From: Candidatus Terasakiella magnetica | GTDB taxonomy: Bacteria > Pseudomonadota > Alphaproteobacteria > Rhodospirillales > Terasakiellaceae | NCBI RefSeq assembly: GCF_900093605.1 | Contig: NZ_FLYE01000009.1 | Coordinates: 1 to 38,872 of the forward strand | Reading direction: 5' to 3' | DNA length: 38,872 nucleotides | In this document: in pieces, positions 19,619-36,781 of the stretch | How positions within the stretch are numbered: the stretch's first letter is position 1 | Layout: every line of letters begins with the position of its first letter | The notes under the pieces: generated by a model | Database searches by the model: none | Told to the model about the DNA's origin: nothing | What the model saw: the letters and a program-made list of their open reading frames with translations, nothing else | Program-made: the position numbers and the translations under genes

Positions 19619-19774
19619 TTGACGAAATGTTCCTTAGGCGAAAGTCAAAAAATAGAAAACGAGTGTGCCCATTTTCCTGTGCAAAAATTCATTTTGAACT
19701 GGCAAACGCGCACGCGCGGGTATACATACTCTTAAATCGACCTTTTAAGCAAGCCTCATAACGGGAGTTTTTCC

Positions 19775-20512
19775 ATGTCTTCAACCACTGTTAACCCTGA
19801 AGAAGTCGCATGGTTTACGGCAATTGCCGATGAGTGGTGGGACCCAAATGGCAAATTTCGCCCGCTTCACAAATTCAACCCCACCCGCCTAACCTTCATT
19901 CGTGAACGTTTATGTGCACATTTTGGGCTGGATGAAACAGCTGAACAACCGCTTAAGGGTTTGAAAATACTTGATATCGGCTGTGGCGGCGGATTGATTT
20001 CAGAACCGCTATGCCGCATGGGGGCCCAAATGACCAGCATTGATGCGGGTGATAAAAACATCAAAACCGCCATGGTCCATGCCGAGGCTGGTGGCCTTGA
20101 CATTGATTATCGCTGTGTCTTTCCTGAAGATTTGGCAGCGCAAAATGTGCAGTATGATGCGGTGCTGAATATGGAAGTGATTGAGCATGTCGCCGATATT
20201 GATGCCTTTTTGGATGCATCATGCGCTTTGGTCAAACCCGGTGGCGCCATGATTGGTGCAACCCTAAACCGCACGATCAAGTCTTTTGCCATGGCAAAAG
20301 TTGGGGCTGAATATATCTTGGGCTGGTTGCCCCGTGGCACCCATGACTTTTCCCAATTTGTAAAACCATCAGAATTTGCCGATGGCTTGCGCAAAAACGG
20401 ACTTGAGGTCAAACTTATGAACGGCATGACCTTTAATCCGTTTCGCGACAGCTGGTCCCTAACCAATGACCTGAGCGTCAACTATCTGTTATTTGCGACT
20501 AAACAGACTTAA
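19775..20512 (+). CDS. ubiG: Ubiquinone biosynthesis O-methyltransferase UbiG
   Basis: UbiG carries out both O-methylations of the ubiquinone ring using S-adenosylmethionine. The 245-residue protein starts with the family motif EVAWFTAIADEWWDPNGKFR, followed by PLHKFNPTRL. It has the SAM-binding ILDIGCGGGL at 65-74, the acidic IDAGDKNIKTA, and VLNMEVIEHVADI. ATG 19775 has GGGAG 9 bases upstream. It is divergent from lysC, a conserved arrangement in alphaproteobacteria. A small gene of unknown function follows after 18 bases. Confidence 0.96.
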   Translation: MSSTTVNPEEVAWFTAIADEWWDPNGKFRPLHKFNPTRLTFIRERLCAHFGLDETAEQPLKGLKILDIGCGGGLISEPLCRMGAQMTSIDAGDKNIKTAMVHAEAGGLDIDYRCVFPEDLAAQNVQYDAVLNMEVIEHVADIDAFLDASCALVKPGGAMIGATLNRTIKSFAMAKVGAEYILGWLPRGTHDFSQFVKPSEFADGLRKNGLEVKLMNGMTFNPFRDSWSLTNDLSVNYLLFATKQT

Positions 20513-22119: not shown

Positions 22120-24582
22120 CTAGCCTTTAATGGCAGCAGCCAGTTTCTTATCAAATGACATGATGTGGTTTACCCACCAGCTGCCCAGCAGACCCGTTAG
22201 ATCCACCTCGGCACCGCTCTCACCATTTTGATATTTGGCATAAAGCCCATCCAGACGTTTCACAAAGCCTTCATGGGCTTTCTTATGGATTTCATAGTCC
22301 GCATAATTCATATTCTGCATAACTTCTTCTTCTGAACCGAAATGCGTTTCGGTGTAATTATGCAGCTCAGAAAAGGCCATCTGGATATCATCTTGGGTCG
22401 CATTGGTTTTCATAAAGTGATAGAGGCTATTGACCATACCCAAGAGCTTCTTATGGTCATCATCGATATGATCCACGCCAAAGGCCAGATCATCACTCCA
22501 TGATACAAGTTCGCTTACTTCATCACCGCTATCAAACTGAACATTCTGCAAGAATTCCGTGACTTTCTTGCGCAACACATCGCCTTGCTTTGACAAAGCA
22601 CCAGACGCCTGACCAATATCGACAGAGGCCGTTTCAGCACGTTCTGCTGAATGCAGCACATGAATGACTTCTTGGGAGACATTCTGCGTACCTTGGGAAG
22701 CTTGTTCCACATTGCGTGCGATTTCTGATGTGGCTGCACTTTGTTCTTCCACGGCTGCTGAAATAGAAGCTGAAATTTCATTCACCTCACCAATGGCACG
22801 CGATACATTGCTGATCGCACTGACCGAGGCATTGGTGGAAGACTGCACTTCTGAGATTTGTTTGCCAATTTCTTCTGTAGCTTGCGAGGTCTGGTTGGCT
22901 AATGTTTTAACTTCTTGGGCCACAACAGCAAAGCCTTTACCCGCATCGCCTGCGCGCGCGGCCTCAATCGTGGCGTTTAGGGCCAACATATTGGTCTGGT
23001 CCGCAATGTCATTAATGAGCCCGACAAACTCACCAATTTTAGAGACATTATCTTCAAGAACGCGGATTTTCTCAGAGGTATTATTGGCCTCACTTACCGC
23101 CGTCATGGAAGAAGTCGCCGCATTGGCAACTTGACTCGAAATTTCAGAAATAGAAGCTGAAAGCTCTTCTGCCGCACTGGCAACTGTTTCCACATTGGTT
23201 GAAGCTTCTTCAGCCGAGGCTGCAACAGTTGCCGACTGCCCTTTGGTCGTAGAGGCAATATCATTCATCTCAATGGAGGTTTCCTGCATAGAGACATCTG
23301 CGGCAGAAAGCCCATCCATCACCGTAACCATGGTCAGTTCGAAATCCTGAATATAGCCTTCCATCAATTTCTGGCGGCGGATTTTTTCTTCCTCCTCAGC
23401 CAGTTTTTCTTGATTGAGTCGCTCCGCTTTAATCAGTCCTTCTTTAAAGAATTCAACCGATTTTGCCATTTCACCAATCTCATCACCACGATCGGCACCT
23501 TCAACACCTACGCTGTGATCACCTTGTGACAAGGCCGTCATCACATTGGTCAAACTATGAACAGGCTGTGTGATCCCGTGAACGATTTGCATGACCACAA
23601 CAACGGTGACAGCCAGAAGGGCTAAAGTGACCAACAAAGCCATATAAAAAGCTGTATCAGCGCCAGAGCGGATATCATTTGTCATACCCACGAGGTCGTC
23701 AGCAACTTTATTTTCAACGGTTTTTAACAGGTTGATCTTCTTGGTGATTGTGTCAAACCAGTAAGGACCTTCAATGCCTTGTGTTGTTCCTGTAACCGCA
23801 CTTTCAATGGCAATTTTGCGCATGCGGTTGACATCATCCACATCCGGGCCTTTAACCGTGTTTTTCATAAAGGCAATTTGTTCTGACGTGGCAAAAATCG
23901 CAAAGCGGCTTAAGAAAGTATTTTGCATGGCGATAAGCTGGAGGAATTTGCGGTAAATAACCGGCTTGAATTTCCCTGCACTAAACCCGCCAGAGCCCAT
24001 GGCGCGTTCAATACCTGCGCGCTCTTTTGCCTGCAAAAAGGCCGTATAGGCCGTAATGGCACCGGTGACTTGCGCATCATTACTCAAGACCGCCATTTCT
24101 TCAACAATGCTGAGGAGCTTGGCAATGGTTGGGGTGTAATAGCCCGCCATTTTTGGGATGGTAAGTTCAAGGCCGGAGACCTGTTTGCGTTTGGCCTGAA
24201 GCTGGGATAAAGCTTTGCTTGCCGTGCTGATTTTGCCTTTCAGCACCTCACTGTAATTATCAACCGGGAAAGTCTTGAAAGCCTGCTGTAACAAGCCGTG
24301 TTTGATATCACTTTCTTGGCGTTGATTATCCAGCTTGGCTTTAAACTTCTGCCCTTTACTGCCAATAAAACCGGCTGAGGTGCCGCGTTCTTTTTGTAAT
24401 TCATGCACCAGCGCACTGATGGTCGGCGCAAGGTCTGCCAAGGTGGTTAAACGTTCCATATTGGTTGAAATCTGGCGTTTATCCAAAACGATGGAGCCTG
24501 CAAAAAACAACAGCCCAATCACAGGTAAGGCCAACGCCAACATAATACGAAACCGAATTTGAAGATTATTCAACGCAGACAT
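22120..24582 (-). CDS. Chemoreceptor with NIT sensor, HAMP, MCP and C-terminal hemerythrin domains
   Basis: An 820-residue methyl-accepting chemotaxis protein. TM1 is at about 8-30 ([20 protein letters not shown]). A large periplasmic helical domain (about 45-310) starts with [20 protein letters not shown], the signature of the NIT nitrate/nitrite-sensing domain. TM2 at about 315-340 and HAMP ([20 protein letters not shown]) follow. The signalling hairpin tip is [20 protein letters not shown] with [20 protein letters not shown]. Residues 689-820 are a hemerythrin domain with every di-iron ligand visible: H710, H747, E751, H766, H770, H806 and D811. It should bind O2 or NO at the receptor's cytoplasmic end, as in DcrH. 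ATG 24582 is chosen because GGGAG lies 8 bases upstream and the membrane helix begins there; the frame extends to 24711. Confidence 0.93.
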
Positions 24583-24639
24583 GCAAAACTCCCACCTTGA
24601 CCATTTACCAGCCAATCTATCCATTCTTATATATTTGAA

Positions 24640-24735
24640 AAGCCTTAAATAACCTACCTTTAAGCGCCATAGGTTATCGTTAACAAAACCAAAACATGAC
24701 AACCCTATCATGTTTAAGGTAGGTTACAAAGGCTT
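24640..24735. repeat. Nested inverted repeat with two alternative pairings
   Basis: AAGCCTT (24640-24646) and TAACCTACCTT (24650-24660) pair with AAGGTAGGTTA (24716-24726) and AAGGCTT (24729-24735), separated by a short internal loop. Inside lies a second perfect hairpin, AAACATGA (24693-24700) with TCATGTTT (24708-24715). A further TAGGTTA at 24670-24676 can pair with the same TAACCTA (24650-24656), so two structures compete. It sits between the DUF1178 gene and the chemoreceptor. There is no clear T-tract, so a simple terminator is not the best reading. Confidence 0.65.
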
Positions 24736-27724: not shown

Positions 27725-30217
27725 CTATTCAGCCGCCTCTTGCGCCATCTTGTGAAGAGACAAGCTGCTCACCAGCTTGTTTAATTGTGCTGCTGATTTT
27801 GAAATTTCCTCAGCTTCGCCTTTTAAATCACGAGCCTGTGTATGGCTAAGGCTCGCCGCCTGTTTCACATCCAAAATACCTTCATTCAGGTTATCTGTCT
27901 GATGAGCGGCGTGGCCTGCCATGCTTGATGCATCGTGCGTATTGCTGGCAACACGGTTAATTTCAGAAGCGACATAAGTGGTCATATCCGTCATTTCACC
28001 AAGGCGACCAGAAATACGCCCTGCGGCAATAGACTGACGATCCACAGCACTGTCGATACCGTCTGCTGTTTCTTTGACATGCTCTACAAGGCCTGCGATT
28101 TTTTCCATCACATGTACCGCATCGCTCGCACCATTTTGCATTGTGGACACACGCTGTTCAATATCTGCAATCGCCTTTGCCGTTTGATTGGCGAGGTTCT
28201 TCACCTCACCCGCCACCACGGCAAACCCCTTGCCCGCTTCACCACTACGAGCAGCTTCAATCGTGGCATTTAAGGCCAGCATATTGGTCTGATTGGCAAT
28301 ATCACTGATCATATTCAAAACATCACTTGTTGCACGGGCAGCTTCGCCAAGGGCTTTCATCTTATCTTGACCTTCACGAACCTCCCCCACTGCATTGCTC
28401 AAAAGGCTTTGCGTCTGATCTGTCGATGAAGAAATTTCATCAATACTGCCCACGACACTGCGGATTTCATTCGCGACATTTTGGACAGTCTGCGACATTT
28501 CATCGGCATTTTCGGCAATGGTTTTAGCAAGGTTTCCTGCCTCACCAACACCGTCAGCCATTTTATTCATATCACCTGAGACATTCTGAGTTGTACTTTC
28601 CAGCTCAAAAGCCCGTGATTGGGTCTGTTCAGCCTGCGCGCTCAAGTCCGTTGACATGCTGGCAAGGTTTTGTGACGCACTGACGAGAACATCAGTGGTA
28701 TTTTTCATCCCCGTAACCAGTGAAGCATTACGATCCATGAGACGTTTGAAATAAAATGCAATTTCATCGGCCTCATCAGCTGCGATAAAATTTGCGTGGG
28801 GTTCCTCCTGTCCATCAGAACCTGCGAAAACATGTTCCATTTCACGCAGCACATGAGAGGCGCCCATGGTTGCAGCATGTTCAGCAAAGTTCAAACCGTT
28901 CAGTTCGTCTTCTTCAGAAACACGCATGCCACCTTCAAACATGGAATTAACAATTTTCAGGATAAAATAAGGTAAGACAAAGGCCCAAACAAAGGCTGTT
29001 GCAACACCAGTTGCCTGCACGCCCAATTGTGCCCACATACCCATTTCAAAAGTGCCTGCTGGTGCAACAAGCGCAAGCGCAAGTGTACCAAAAGCCCCGG
29101 CAACCCCATGCACAGATACCGCACCAACCACATCATCAGCTTTTAATTTCTTCTCAAGGAAATCAGCAGCAAGTACAACGACGACAGCACTGCCTGCCCC
29201 GATAAAGATTGCGCCCCACAGGCTCACCACATCACAGCCAGCCGTTATACCAACAAGCCCACCAAGCACGCCATTGATTGAACGGTCCGGGCGATAATGC
29301 CCATCGACTTTGCGCCCTAAAACCAAGCCAAACAGACCGCCTATTGCACCTGCAACCACCGTATTGGCAATGATATGTGCAAAAGCAGGAGTGCCTGCTG
29401 TTGTAGAGCCGCCATTAAATCCGATCCAGCCGATCCATAAAATGATGCAGCCAAATGTTGCCAGAACTGGGCTATGACCATTAATTTCAACAGGTTTGCC
29501 ATCTTGGTCATAACGGCCCAAACGCGGGCCAATAACCAACACAGCCGCCAAAGCCACCCAGCCCCCAACGGAGTGAACAACCGTTGAACCTGCAAAATCA
29601 ACAAAACCCATGGCAGCTAAGAACGGCTCGTTATCGCCATTAAGCAAATTGCCCCATGCCCAGTGACCAAAGACCGGATAGATCAATAAAGCGATTAAAA
29701 GCGTAACCGCAAGATAGCCGCCAAACTTCATACGCTCTGCAACTGCACCAGATACAATTGTTGCCGCAGTACCACAAAAGACCACTTGGAAAACAAAGAA
29801 GGTGAAGGTCCAATCTTCAACTTTGTCAAAAGCCAAAAGCTCCCAATCAAAGCCGACCAATCCACCAAGAGAATTCCCGAACATCAACATAAAACCAACA
29901 GCGCCAAAGCAAACAGTTGCTAAAATAAAGTCAGCAATATTTTTTTGCGCTACGTTAATTGAGTTTTTTGAGCGCACAAGACCTGCTTCCAATAAAAGGA
30001 AACCGCCCTGCATAAAAAAGACAAGACAAGCTGCAAGCATTGTCCAGATATGGTCAATATTAACCTGCTTCTGATTTAACTCATTTTCGAGAAAAGTGAG
30101 GCGTTCTTCTAATACTTTTGCGTCCATTGCCCACAAATCGCTAATTTGAGCAAGAAGAGTTATGACGACGAGTAGAGAGAAAACGATAGTCTTTGGTACT
30201 TTTTTTAATACCTTCAT
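27725..30217 (-). CDS. Ammonium transporter (Amt) fused to a chemoreceptor signalling domain
   Basis: An 830-residue fusion. Residues 1-30 look like a signal peptide, as in many Amt proteins, followed by a short coiled coil. Residues about 54-445 form a full Amt domain with 11 expected helices. Key AmtB positions are present: the binding-site aspartate (D207 in [10 protein letters not shown]), the twin histidines (H215, and H370 in VSVHGVAG), and [10 protein letters not shown] for the inner gate. The C-terminal tail [17 protein letters not shown] is the normal Amt cytoplasmic tail. After a linker (445-480) comes an MCP domain with hairpin tip [20 protein letters not shown] (636-655) and [16 protein letters not shown]. 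No HAMP lies between. ATG 30217 has GGAG 8 bases upstream. A sigma-54 promoter precedes it. No glnK is adjacent. It probably signals ammonium to CheA. Confidence 0.94.
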
Positions 30218-30280
30218 TGATATTCTCCATTCCATAGTAACGACGGTGCTGATTAACGTCTCAGCCTTTAGGAATAAAAG

Positions 30281-30296
30281 AGCAAAACCAATGCCA
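30281..30296 (-). promoter_or_regulatory. Sigma-54 (RpoN) promoter of the Amt-MCP gene
   Basis: The minus strand reads TGGCATTGGTTTTGCT, matching the consensus TGGCAYRNNNNTTGCW at all but one position. GG and GC are separated by exactly 10 bases. The predicted transcription start is near 30270, giving a leader of about 53 bases before ATG 30217. Confidence 0.75.
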
Positions 30297-33744: not shown

Positions 33745-35658
33745 ATGGGTACGCACGACAATCAGACCTATGAAGTCCAAGTCTATAACAATGGACGATG
33801 GCAAGTGCAGGCGCGCTATCCTTATCAAGAACGCGTCGTTGCCATTCATGAAGCCAAAGAGCTTGATCATGATAAAGTCGGCCTTGCCATTCGTGTTATT
33901 TTAGAAGATTACAACCCCGATAACGGGCGCCATATGGAATCCCTCATCTGGCGTAATAAGGTTGAGCCTAAAAAGAAAAAAGTTGCACGCACCCGCTCAG
34001 CCAACAGTTGGGCAGATATGGCGGTATCTTCTGATGGTCGGGTTGGCTACCTGTCTGAAGATGTGGATATGTTTCTCGCTGAAGATGACCCAAGTGAGCG
34101 ACTTAAAGCCCATGTCACCCCTGCGATGTTTTTGGGCATTTGCTTTAGTATCCTTGCCATTGGCCTTGGGGCGGGCGGGGCTGCTGCGGGATTGCTATAT
34201 CTATTGATTAAGGGAATGAGCCTCACTGTGGCTGAACATGCCCAGAAGATGATTTTAATGGCAATGTTCAGCATCGTTTTCATCATTGCTGCCACATCGA
34301 CCTACAGCCGCTATGCCGCACGTTTTGAACTCAACCCCTTTCGCAAAAAGAAGAAGCCGACACCAACTGTTGAAAAATCAAAGATTTCACAAGAGATGGA
34401 AAAAGCAGCTGAGGCCATTGATAAAATGGAAGCCGCTGAGCCTGCCCCCGAGCCAGAAGCTGAAGAAGAGTTTGATTTTCACGAGTATATTGATGAAAGC
34501 GAAACCGAGACAGAAGAAGAAATAAAGGAAGTTGCTTTTTCACAAGAGGCTGAAAAACAAAAAGCCTTTTTGATCAATTTCCTTGGCGTCACCCTTGGCG
34601 CACTTAAAGGGCCCGATGCCAGTATGGAAACCTTAAACCGTTTTGGCCTTAATCTGTTTATGTCCGGTGCGGTCCTCAGGTTAGCAAAGGACCATGGGCT
34701 TAGTGATGATGAAACGACTTTGATCCTGCGCCGCCTTCTTGAAATGTTAGGGGCAAAGCCGGACCAAGCCGATCGTTTTGTCAGTGAATTTGGTAAATAT
34801 CTTGAAAATGATCGCCATATCAATCTGTTTAAACAAAGCGGGGATATTGCCGCGCGTCTTTCAAACGGGGATACATCAGCCCAATTAATCATACGTGATG
34901 TGATGCAAGAATGGGTGAACTGGAAGCCCCCTGTTGATGAAAAGATCAACCCACACCTGCTCACCATTATGTTTACTGATATGGTTGGCTCAACAGACCT
35001 GACCACCAAACATGGTGATTTTGCTGCCCAAGAAGTGCTAAAAGCCCATGACCTGATTGTGCGCACCGCGCTCACCAACCTTGACGGGCTTGAGATCAAG
35101 CATTTAGGGGATGGGATTATGGCCTCTTTTAAAGACCATAACAAAGCCTTGGAAGCCGCGGTTGAAATTCACAAACGGGTTGAGGGCAACAATAACGCCG
35201 ATCCGGAATTCCCCTTACATATTCGCATTGGGCTACATGCGGGTGAGCCCATTAAGAAAAACAACGATCTGTTTGGTACCGCAGTTCAACTGGCCGCACG
35301 TTTATGTGATTTCACGCCCAGTGACTCGATCTCCATCTCCCCTGATCTTGTTGAGCTCTGTGGTGAAAAACCCATCTATAGCTTTCTTGACCAAGGTCCA
35401 CAGGAATTAAAAGGCTTTGATGAGCCTAAAAATGTCTTCCAACTTGATTGGACGGCCCCACCGCTTCAATATCCAGATGAAGAACTTGAGGCCGTAATTG
35501 AGGGAGAAGCCCCTCTGGGCGAGGAGCCCCACGCCCCTGACATGGATGTGCAAGCCCCACAAGAAGAGCCCGAAATTGACAAAGGTTTTGATGAAGGGCT
35601 CGTGGTTAAAGAAACTGTCGAGGAAACGCCTAAAAACGTTTCAACACCAGAGACGTAA
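33745..35658 (+). CDS. Membrane class III adenylate cyclase
   Basis: A 637-residue protein. Residues 7-70 form an unrecognised domain (QTYEVQVYNNGRWQVQARYP and EAKELDHDKVGLAIRVILED). Two membrane helices lie at about 126-155 and 168-188. A charged Lys/Glu/Pro linker (196-270) and a helical domain (270-395) follow. The catalytic domain covers about 403-570, with metal-binding D412 (FTDMVGST) and D456 (HLGDG), and adenine-specifying K452 and D508. The transition-state arginine R519 is present, but the usual asparagine before it is Q515 (VQLAAR). The enzyme should make cAMP, possibly at altered rate. The tail (575-637) is acidic and Pro-rich. ATG 33745 has AAGGA upstream. The gene overlaps the convergent phosphatase by 29 bp. 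Confidence 0.9.
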   Translation: MGTHDNQTYEVQVYNNGRWQVQARYPYQERVVAIHEAKELDHDKVGLAIRVILEDYNPDNGRHMESLIWRNKVEPKKKKVARTRSANSWADMAVSSDGRVGYLSEDVDMFLAEDDPSERLKAHVTPAMFLGICFSILAIGLGAGGAAAGLLYLLIKGMSLTVAEHAQKMILMAMFSIVFIIAATSTYSRYAARFELNPFRKKKKPTPTVEKSKISQEMEKAAEAIDKMEAAEPAPEPEAEEEFDFHEYIDESETETEEEIKEVAFSQEAEKQKAFLINFLGVTLGALKGPDASMETLNRFGLNLFMSGAVLRLAKDHGLSDDETTLILRRLLEMLGAKPDQADRFVSEFGKYLENDRHINLFKQSGDIAARLSNGDTSAQLIIRDVMQEWVNWKPPVDEKINPHLLTIMFTDMVGSTDLTTKHGDFAAQEVLKAHDLIVRTALTNLDGLEIKHLGDGIMASFKDHNKALEAAVEIHKRVEGNNNADPEFPLHIRIGLHAGEPIKKNNDLFGTAVQLAARLCDFTPSDSISISPDLVELCGEKPIYSFLDQGPQELKGFDEPKNVFQLDWTAPPLQYPDEELEAVIEGEAPLGEEPHAPDMDVQAPQEEPEIDKGFDEGLVVKETVEETPKNVSTPET

Positions 35659-36781
35659 AATCATCATTCTGTTCAGCACCTGCGCGAAAATCATTTACAA
35701 AAGCAAACAGGTTTTCTGATAAGGAGTGAGCTGAAAGGCTTCTATTTTCCAAGAGATAATCAATCAAGCGCTCTTCAGAAAACTGGTTTTTATCGCGATC
35801 AAAGGCTTCGGTGACGCCATCGGTATAAAAGAAAATGGCATCGCCTTCCCCCAGTTTACAGGTGCAGTTTTCAAAAGGCATATCTTCTTGAACGCCCAGC
35901 ACAATCCCTTCGCGCCCCTCAAGCCCAATGGCACCCTTAGCATCATCATTACTGACTAAATATGGTGGCAAATGCCCGCCATTACTATAGGTGACTTCCC
36001 ATGTTTTGGTATCCACCACACAGTAAAAGACTGATACAAACATGGAATTAATTTCATGCTCACACAGCAGGTTATTCACCTGTGAAAGACAGGCCGCAGG
36101 CGATGGGCTTGTCATGGCTGTTGCGCGCAATAAGGTTCTTGCCACCGCCATAAAAAAGGCCGCGGGAATGCCTTTACCTGAGACATCGGCAACCGCAATG
36201 CCGATCTTGTCATCATCAAGATCAAAGGTATCGTAAAAATCTCCACTCATGCGTTTGGCAGGGGTGAGATGGGCTGAAATTTCCAGATGATCACTTGAAG
36301 GAAAGATGGAGGGCAGAATTTGTTTTTGGATATTCTCTGCAATATCCAGCTCACGCTTAATGGCAGAAAGCTGGGCTTCATTGCGCCATGCTTCCCGGCG
36401 TGCTTCGCAGTCTTTAAAAACTTTATCAACCGTGACCATCAGGTCATCTGCATTCACAGGCTTGGTTAAAAAGTCTGCTGCCCCTTCGTTCATGGCTTTA
36501 CGAATGGATGATAAATCACGCCCACCCGTTAACGCAATACGTGGGACCCGCAGGCGAACACCTTCGAGCTTTTTAAACAGCTCCATGCCAGAAATGTTCC
36601 CACCATCAATGGAGACAATGGCGATATCGAGTTCATCTTCACCTTGAATGATCTTGAGGGCTTCTTCATCAGAATGTGCAAAAATAAAGCGATGCTCACC
36701 CATTGCAGTGGCGCTTCCAATACAGGTTTCACACACCCGTTGAAAGTCTTGATCGTCATCCACCACTAATGTTGTTGGCAT
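35630..36781 (-). CDS. Receiver-domain PP2C (SpoIIE/RsbU-type) phosphatase with altered receiver
   Basis: A 383-residue protein. Residues 1-125 form a response-regulator receiver fold: acidic D8-D10, threonine T85 (ALTGG) and lysine K107 (LTKPVN) are in place, but the phosphoacceptor position is serine S57 (DIAIVSIDGG), with an aspartate two residues later. A helical linker (126-165) with ELDIAENIQKQILPSIFP leads to a SpoIIE-type PP2C domain: metal-binding GDFYD, VADVSGKGIPAAFFMA, YSNGGHLPPYL, FYTDGVTEAFD and a final NDDFTSLVLK. Such proteins dephosphorylate anti-sigma-factor antagonists in partner-switching systems. No anti-sigma or STAS gene is adjacent. It is single, with its 3' end overlapping the adenylate cyclase gene. 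Confidence 0.92.
   Translation of the reverse strand: MPTTLVVDDDQDFQRVCETCIGSATAMGEHRFIFAHSDEEALKIIQGEDELDIAIVSIDGGNISGMELFKKLEGVRLRVPRIALTGGRDLSSIRKAMNEGAADFLTKPVNADDLMVTVDKVFKDCEARREAWRNEAQLSAIKRELDIAENIQKQILPSIFPSSDHLEISAHLTPAKRMSGDFYDTFDLDDDKIGIAVADVSGKGIPAAFFMAVARTLLRATAMTSPSPAACLSQVNNLLCEHEINSMFVSVFYCVVDTKTWEVTYSNGGHLPPYLVSNDDAKGAIGLEGREGIVLGVQEDMPFENCTCKLGEGDAIFFYTDGVTEAFDRDKNQFSEERLIDYLLENRSLSAHSLSENLFAFVNDFRAGAEQNDDFTSLVLKRF

Follow-up and report, generated by a model that had tools for sequence, protein, structure and literature searches.

A gene on the minus strand of Candidatus Terasakiella magnetica joins an ammonium transporter (Amt) domain to the signalling hairpin of a chemoreceptor (MCP). 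We consider it likely that its product, P0001, is a dedicated ammonium chemoreceptor under sigma-54 control that derives from the known family of sensor Amts, with ammonium uptake left to two separate Amts. Judged by its sequence, the Amt half clusters with Amt receptors that have histidine-kinase or GGDEF outputs, apart from stand-alone Amts. The cell would probably swim according to surrounding ammonium when nitrogen is short.

Inspection of the window, the whole 38,872-nucleotide stretch of DNA that was analyzed, revealed a single open frame at 27725..30235 on the minus strand that counts 836 residues from its first ATG. Read on the plus strand, 27725-30217 contained stop codons throughout. 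The ATG at 30217 is internal, lying six codons into the frame. This ATG (Met7) is probably the true start, because GGAG sits 7 nt upstream, Met7 is conserved in the genus orthologs L104-L106, and the position of Met1 is a stop codon in L105 and isoleucine in L106. Residues are numbered here by the 836-residue frame, that is, as in the first-pass annotation plus 6. Pfam placed Ammonium_transp at residues 64-456 (350 bits, profile positions 2-397 of 399) and MCPsignal at residues 618-769 (112.7 bits against a cut-off of 34.6), and found no further family at E≤0.001. Thus the fusion that the first-pass annotation had reported at 27725-30217 is real, in that one minus-strand frame carries both domains. 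The residues that it had listed as intact (D207, H215 and H370) correspond to D213, H221 and H376 and are invariant in 17 Amt-MCP fusions. The same holds for the other pore residues except S277, which is present in 16 of the 17. Amts have eleven helices with the N-terminus outside and the C-terminus inside, a topology that places the MCP hairpin in the cytoplasm. The terminator-like stem is weak evidence, since the window contains three such sites as compared to 4.3 in shuffled sequences.

Table 1. Features of the Amt-MCP gene, in window coordinates.
Feature	Position	Strand	Basis
Coding region, Met7 of P0001 to stop codon, probably 830 aa	27725..30217	-	Frame, ortholog starts and GGAG
Likely N-terminal signal peptide ahead of the Amt domain	30110..30217	-	Sequence inspection by eye
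Amt domain, residues 64-456	28868..30046	-	Pfam; 6eu6 alignment; fold match to 6eu6 and 8qj3
Predicted Amt ammonium-site residues Q76, E83, N99, D102, T159, S162	within 28868..30046	-	6eu6 (Ks-Amt5) alignment
Amt pore residues W194, D213, H221, F273, S277, H376; tail motif GLN449	within 28868..30046	-	Alignment
Connector, residues 457-505, putative diverged HAMP-like, DE motif 487-488	28721..28867	-	Profile and alignment; model helix-loop-helix of low confidence
Chemoreceptor cytoplasmic hairpin, residues 506-830	27746..28720	-	MCPsignal 618-769; same-genome MCP alignment; model helices
Hairpin tip, residues 648-668 (21 residues)	28232..28294	-	Alignments
Putative sigma-54 type -24/-12 promoter element TGGCAT-N5-TTGCT	30281..30296	-	Pattern match and orthologs
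Putative ribosome-binding sequence GGAG	30225..30228	-	By eye
Terminator-like stem, 20 pairs, directly 3′ of the stop codon	27664..27707	-	Weak

We then considered whether an assembly or sequencing error had joined two neighboring genes, which the first-pass annotation had named as a refuting condition at about residues 445-480. Among 100 genomes searched, the fusion was found in five of the six Terasakiella genomes, the window's own included, with 79-89% identity; the genus genomes include Terasakiella pusilla and T. brassicae. The sixth (G003) had no Amt-MCP match and contains an Amt-GGDEF protein. In T. pusilla (L107, 7800-8200) a stop codon interrupts the frame past the signal peptide, ahead of the first transmembrane helix, and may reflect a true pseudogene, a sequencing error or a restart. 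Across the five genus copies Ka was 0.03-0.30 and Ks ranged from 0.48 to saturated, with similar values in the Amt, connector and hairpin parts. Outside the genus, Amt-MCP proteins of 34-48% identity occur in other Alphaproteobacteria, in one genome of another class and on three plasmids. Because the junction recurs within the genus, in more distant genomes and on plasmids, and Ka is below Ks on both sides of it, a joining artifact, for which we found no point in favor, is excluded in practice.

Surveys of wider taxa identified Amt-MCP fusions in at least 9 of 317 genomes of the order, at least 5 of 385 of the class and at least 3 of 398 of the phylum, each count including the window's genome and each being a lower bound set by strict E-value limits. 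In the class survey the G525 copy was completed, and the G427 copy (L095) is cut by a contig end; L095 and the partial copy L093 were left out of the alignment of fusions. G439 carries a full Amt-MCP frame and a second, incomplete one near a contig start (L093 and L094). Among 72,556 plasmid records, three cover at least 80% of the fusion, two from Tritonibacter and one from Phaeobacter inhibens, the last annotated as an ammonium transporter. In IMG/VR, 1 of 17 loci encodes an Amt-MCP protein.

The nearest solved sequences to P0001 were Sd-Amt1 of Shewanella denitrificans (8qj3, 8qpf) and Ks-Amt5, a sensor histidine kinase of Kuenenia stuttgartiensis (6eu6), with E-values of 1e-93 to 1e-95 as compared to 3e-45 for Af-Amt1. 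Sd-Amt1 is the closest by E-value. Structure was examined with one AlphaFold2 monomer model, which was good over the Amt domain (block pLDDT of about 67-94) and of low confidence in the connector and hairpin. A Foldseek search with this model returned 6eu6 ('Sensor Amt Protein') and 8qj3/8qj4 ('Receptor Sd-Amt1', OFF/ON) at the top, with TM-scores slightly higher than that of Af-Amt1 (0.94 versus 0.92). In the fold match the Amt domain of Ks-Amt5 is 42% identical to that of P0001, and in both proteins a signalling module is joined to the Amt C-terminus. In a quick tree of 80 rows without bootstrap, which lacks Ks-Amt5 and Sd-Amt1 and has very long branches for L003 and L099, all 63 fusion rows formed one clade apart from the stand-alone Amts (SH-aLRT 95), grouping the Amt of P0001 with the receptor type; 13 of 93 rows had been judged redundant and removed. 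Sixteen of the 17 MCP fusions formed one clade (99) together with a single GGDEF protein, and the 17th, from another class, was placed at the base of the fusions. P0001 did not resemble an uptake Amt of the AmtB type, as an MCP is fused to it, its tail reads GLN and no P-II protein was present among the nine window proteins scanned.

The ammonium site of Ks-Amt5 is described as Q24, E31, N47, D50, T51, T109 and T112 in its report (PMC5764959). Alignment with 6eu6 mapped these residues to Q76, E83, N99, D102, F103, T159 and S162 of P0001, so that Q24, E31, N47, D50 and T109 are kept and two of the seven differ (T51 to F103 and T112 to S162). We compared 69 fusions with stand-alone Amts. By motif the fusions fell into 17 MCP, 32 kinase, 18 GGDEF and 2 other proteins, and Pfam was used to check three of the kinase and GGDEF assignments. 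Of 44 stand-alone controls, 42 were used; one of 16 and one of 11 were dropped because the longest-frame rule had given the wrong frame. Q76 and D102 were both present in 68 of the 69 fusions versus 5 of the 42 stand-alone Amts, a comparison that is no random sample, since resemblance to P0001 was the criterion for collecting the fusions and a single signature is shared by the 12 controls that come from viral contigs. All 17 Amt-MCP fusions have this pair, and T51 is not conserved (F103). Similarly, N449, which gives GLN rather than GLD in the C-terminal tail, was found in 69 of 69 fusions versus none of the 42 stand-alone Amts, column 449 being a gap in two further rows.

Because E83 (41 of 42), N99 (32 of 42) and D102 alone (14 of 42) are common in stand-alone Amts, Q76 is the only site residue that discriminates by itself. 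E83, N99 and D102 taken singly, as well as F79, were rejected as receptor marks on account of their frequency in stand-alone Amts, and loop 5 length was rejected because it is mostly equal in stand-alone Amts of this type. GLN at 449 is a simple mark for receptor Amts, stand-alone Amts carrying GLD with no N in 42. We also observed that the stand-alone proteins L048, L086, L087, L089 and L090 have the receptor-type Q and D yet a GLD tail; judged by sequence, they are possibly receptors that act via a partner, or intermediates.

The first-pass annotation had reasoned that the protein may both carry and sense ammonium because its conducting residues are kept. The residues are kept, as stated, yet Ks-Amt5 retains all of its pore residues and binds NH4+ (Kd 41 uM) without efficient translocation, according to PMC5764959, so that their presence is no sign of transport. 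In addition, a P-II gene lies together with two other Amts elsewhere in the genome. If P0001 were a true transceptor, it would conduct ammonium as uptake Amts do, and its chemotaxis signal would arise from the transport cycle itself. Conservation of W194, D213, H221, F273, S277 and H376 would fit such a protein, as would the smaller side chains (L82 and L86) at two of the three pore-blocking positions of Ks-Amt5. Only F27 of that trio is kept (F79), and since F79 is also present in 24 of 24 stand-alone Amts, the pore would be compatible with conduction. Weighed against the precedent of Ks-Amt5, membership of the receptor clade, the combination of Q76 with D102 and the two Amts beside the P-II gene, a transceptor of this kind is unlikely, and we favor a receptor that leaves uptake to those two Amts.

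The Amt domain is followed by a connector that the first-pass annotation had taken to lack HAMP, with the signal going straight to CheA-CheW. Pfam indeed found no HAMP in P0001 at E≤1. However, Pfam HAMP matches at E≤1 were present in 10 of the 17 Amt-MCP fusions and above the cut-off in four relatives (L100, L101, L102 and L097), and two Amt-kinases that were scanned gave weak HAMP matches. When aligned freely with MCPs of the same genome, the connector fell on their HAMP domains. The bend of the hairpin follows the connector's DE motif by 178 residues, which is the HAMP register: the distance was 178 (five) or 179 (four) in the nine genome MCPs whose motif was found by pattern and, by aligned columns, 178-180 in 17 of 25 MCPs, the other eight lying at 165-207. 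Two of five Amt relatives deviated (175 and 162). A profile of the connectors of all 17 fusions matched the genome's HAMPs with an E-value of 7e-5 (1e-5 without the genus and 7e-4 without the four family f18 relatives), compared with 0.011 to 0.14 for six control windows. The genus-only connector did not match the HAMP profile of this genome. The model contains a helix at 459-470, a loop and a helix from 488, with pLDDT of about 40-50. From these alignments and profiles the connector is best read as a HAMP that diverged in Terasakiella. An IMG/VR contig (L123, 2611-4896) encodes an Amt-MCP protein with an apparent second HAMP-like stretch, as judged by eye.

The tip of the hairpin is canonical in the MCP alignment. 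In known receptors this segment contacts CheA and CheW. The turn lies at about 664-668 in both alignment and model, slightly beyond the tip region given in the first-pass annotation (636-655, or 642-661 here). Compared with 25 MCPs of the genome, the hairpin had no heptad-sized gap against most and two compensating 3-residue gaps; L140 carries a 7-residue insertion on each side. The longer tail after the bend first suggested a longer heptad class. The idea of a hairpin four heptads longer than other MCPs was rejected because the alignment indicated the same register with just a longer C-terminal tail.

The genome encodes 37 MCP domains, CheW, and two CheA clusters that both include CheR and CheB; one of the two CheA genes is fused to a receiver domain. 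Such a pair of CheA genes raises the possibility that the MCP half, with the Amt as input, serves another CheA pathway in biofilm formation, c-di-GMP control or development, the more so as sister receptors have GGDEF outputs. However, the canonical tip and an alignment free of heptad-sized gaps with most of the 25 MCPs argue against this possibility, which we regard as doubtful. We prefer an ammonium receptor that would signal to CheA-CheW in chemotaxis. This central proposal of the first-pass annotation agrees with the domain content, the phylogeny, the ammonium-site residues and the two CheA clusters; 'both carry and sense' and 'no HAMP' are the parts of it that we do not retain. Another chemoreceptor in the window (22120-24711, minus strand) has a nitrate/nitrite-sensing NIT domain, HAMP, an MCP hairpin and a C-terminal hemerythrin domain by Pfam, and L145 of the same genome combines NIT with an N-terminal hemerythrin domain.

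Inspection of the DNA upstream of the fusion gene identified TGGCAT-N5-TTGCT at 30296-30281 as the sole match to TGGCAYN5TTGCW in the window, which has four sites at 10 of 12 positions. This match is weak by itself, because 0.28 are expected in the window and 22 of 100 shuffled sequences contain one. We found, however, that an element of this kind (10-11 of 12) recurs in each of the five genus orthologs at an equivalent position, 247-265 nt upstream of the codon for the first helix, even though their upstream DNA has 0-6 10-mers in common per pair. Of the 37 MCP genes, 31 were recovered for a promoter count; the register alignment described above used 25 of the 30 that remain besides the fusion gene. 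Starts were set at the first in-frame Met, and one gene had just 170 nt of upstream DNA; a site of at least 10 was found upstream of 1 of these 31 chemoreceptor genes, the Amt-MCP gene. Outside the genus, 11 fusion genes had enough upstream DNA, and a site of 10 was found in L098 only. The genome has rpoN and ntrC, the latter matching above the cut-off with 706.8 bits. Two observations weigh against nitrogen control. The best matches to an NtrC site upstream of the fusion were no better than those in shuffled sequences, which were as good in 10-79%, and the P-II/Amt region of the genome had no sigma-54 site of 10 or more. By way of this putative promoter, transcription of this single chemoreceptor gene is probably coupled to the nitrogen status of the cell.

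Conservation of this element in all five genus orthologs also bears on whether the fusion is decaying or redundant and lacks a present function. Decay would fit the stop codon that interrupts the T. pusilla copy, the absence of the fusion from G003 and the loss of HAMP similarity within the genus. However, Ka remained below Ks in every part of the protein across five species and the promoter element is kept, and we consider decay very improbable.

Gene neighborhood provided no functional clue and was rejected as one, no functional link having been found among the neighbors. The neighboring cimA, trmJ, azoreductase and cyclase genes are conserved in L104, L106 and L107, whereas L105 did not show them. 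The sole shared neighbor outside the genus that is not an MCP gene was an ORF at 19736-20509, about 10 kb away, which has a 58% match close to where L100 ends. The protein at 33745-35658 (plus strand) has an adenylate/guanylate cyclase domain and matches in L104, L106 and L107; the adjoining gene at 35630-36781 (minus strand) encodes a response regulator with a SpoIIE phosphatase domain and has matches in L104 and L106.

Our model is that the sigma-54 promoter would drive transcription of a receptor-type Amt, of the Ks-Amt5 and Sd-Amt1 kind that evolved from transporters, and that this Amt would admit NH4+ at its periplasmic vestibule. NH4+ would enter past W194 and S277 and be held in an intramembrane site formed by Q76, E83, N99, D102, T159 and S162. 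The resulting conformational change would pass through the Amt C-terminal segment (GLN449) and the diverged HAMP-like connector into an MCP hairpin of normal register, which would control CheA through CheW, with uptake of ammonium left to the two separate Amts. We infer the ligand, the lack of transport, the direction of the response, the nitrogen control and the assembly into arrays and, more loosely, an attractant response under nitrogen limitation.

MCPs are dimers. Amts are trimers (PMC5764959), and this difference in symmetry counts against the model. A tentative extension of the model is a trimeric receptor within the chemoreceptor array, in which the six hairpins that make up a trimer of dimers might come from exactly two Amt trimers, or each Amt trimer might bridge three dimers and seed the lattice. 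The match of two Amt trimers to one trimer of dimers is arithmetic, not evidence. Nitrogen starvation would switch this receptor on through sigma-54, and ammonium taxis would proceed via an intramembrane site rather than a periplasmic ligand-binding domain.

Among known systems, Ks-Amt5 differs from P0001 in that its output is a histidine kinase and, by its authors' account, it has no HAMP (PMC5764959); P0001 in turn has F for T51 and two smaller pore-blocking residues. Sd-Amt1, compared by PDB titles and alignments, is titled a receptor, in an ON and an OFF state, and its chains (644-661 aa) are shorter than P0001. The Amt-HK and Amt-GGDEF fusions of our survey share the receptor clade and Q76, D102 and N449 with P0001, whereas the output domain differs. 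HAMP chemoreceptors of the same genome share the hairpin tip, register and DE-to-bend distance of 178-179 but have other sensor domains, and no upstream sigma-54 element of this strength was found for them. AmtB and the P-II-linked Amts share the fold and pore residues, but they lack Q76 with D102, have a GLD tail and no output domain, and adjoin a P-II gene. To our knowledge, Mep2 of fungi has no fused signalling domain. This ammonium transceptor shares the idea of a signalling ammonium transporter, in a eukaryotic pathway, as summarized in PMC4852598. GrtK, an ammonia sensor kinase of Burkholderia glumae, is another case of bacterial sensing of external ammonia; according to its authors, it has no Amt module and its output is two-component (PMC12918730).

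Amt sensors with a kinase were already characterized (PMC5764959). A 2009 review cited there deals with further Amt fusions, so an earlier mention of an Amt-MCP fusion is possible. Among the matches listed for the open-access literature, none dealt with an Amt-MCP fusion or with Sd-Amt1, and a 2023 review (PMC10433425) does not contain the words 'fused', 'chemotaxis' or 'GGDEF'. Similarly, a direct bacterial receptor for ammonium taxis was not among the matches listed in the open-access literature. The Amt-MCP family is a concrete candidate for such a receptor. It shows a single kind of Amt receptor module combined with kinase, diguanylate-cyclase and chemoreceptor outputs, and it poses the structural question of how a trimeric membrane sensor may drive dimeric chemoreceptor rods.
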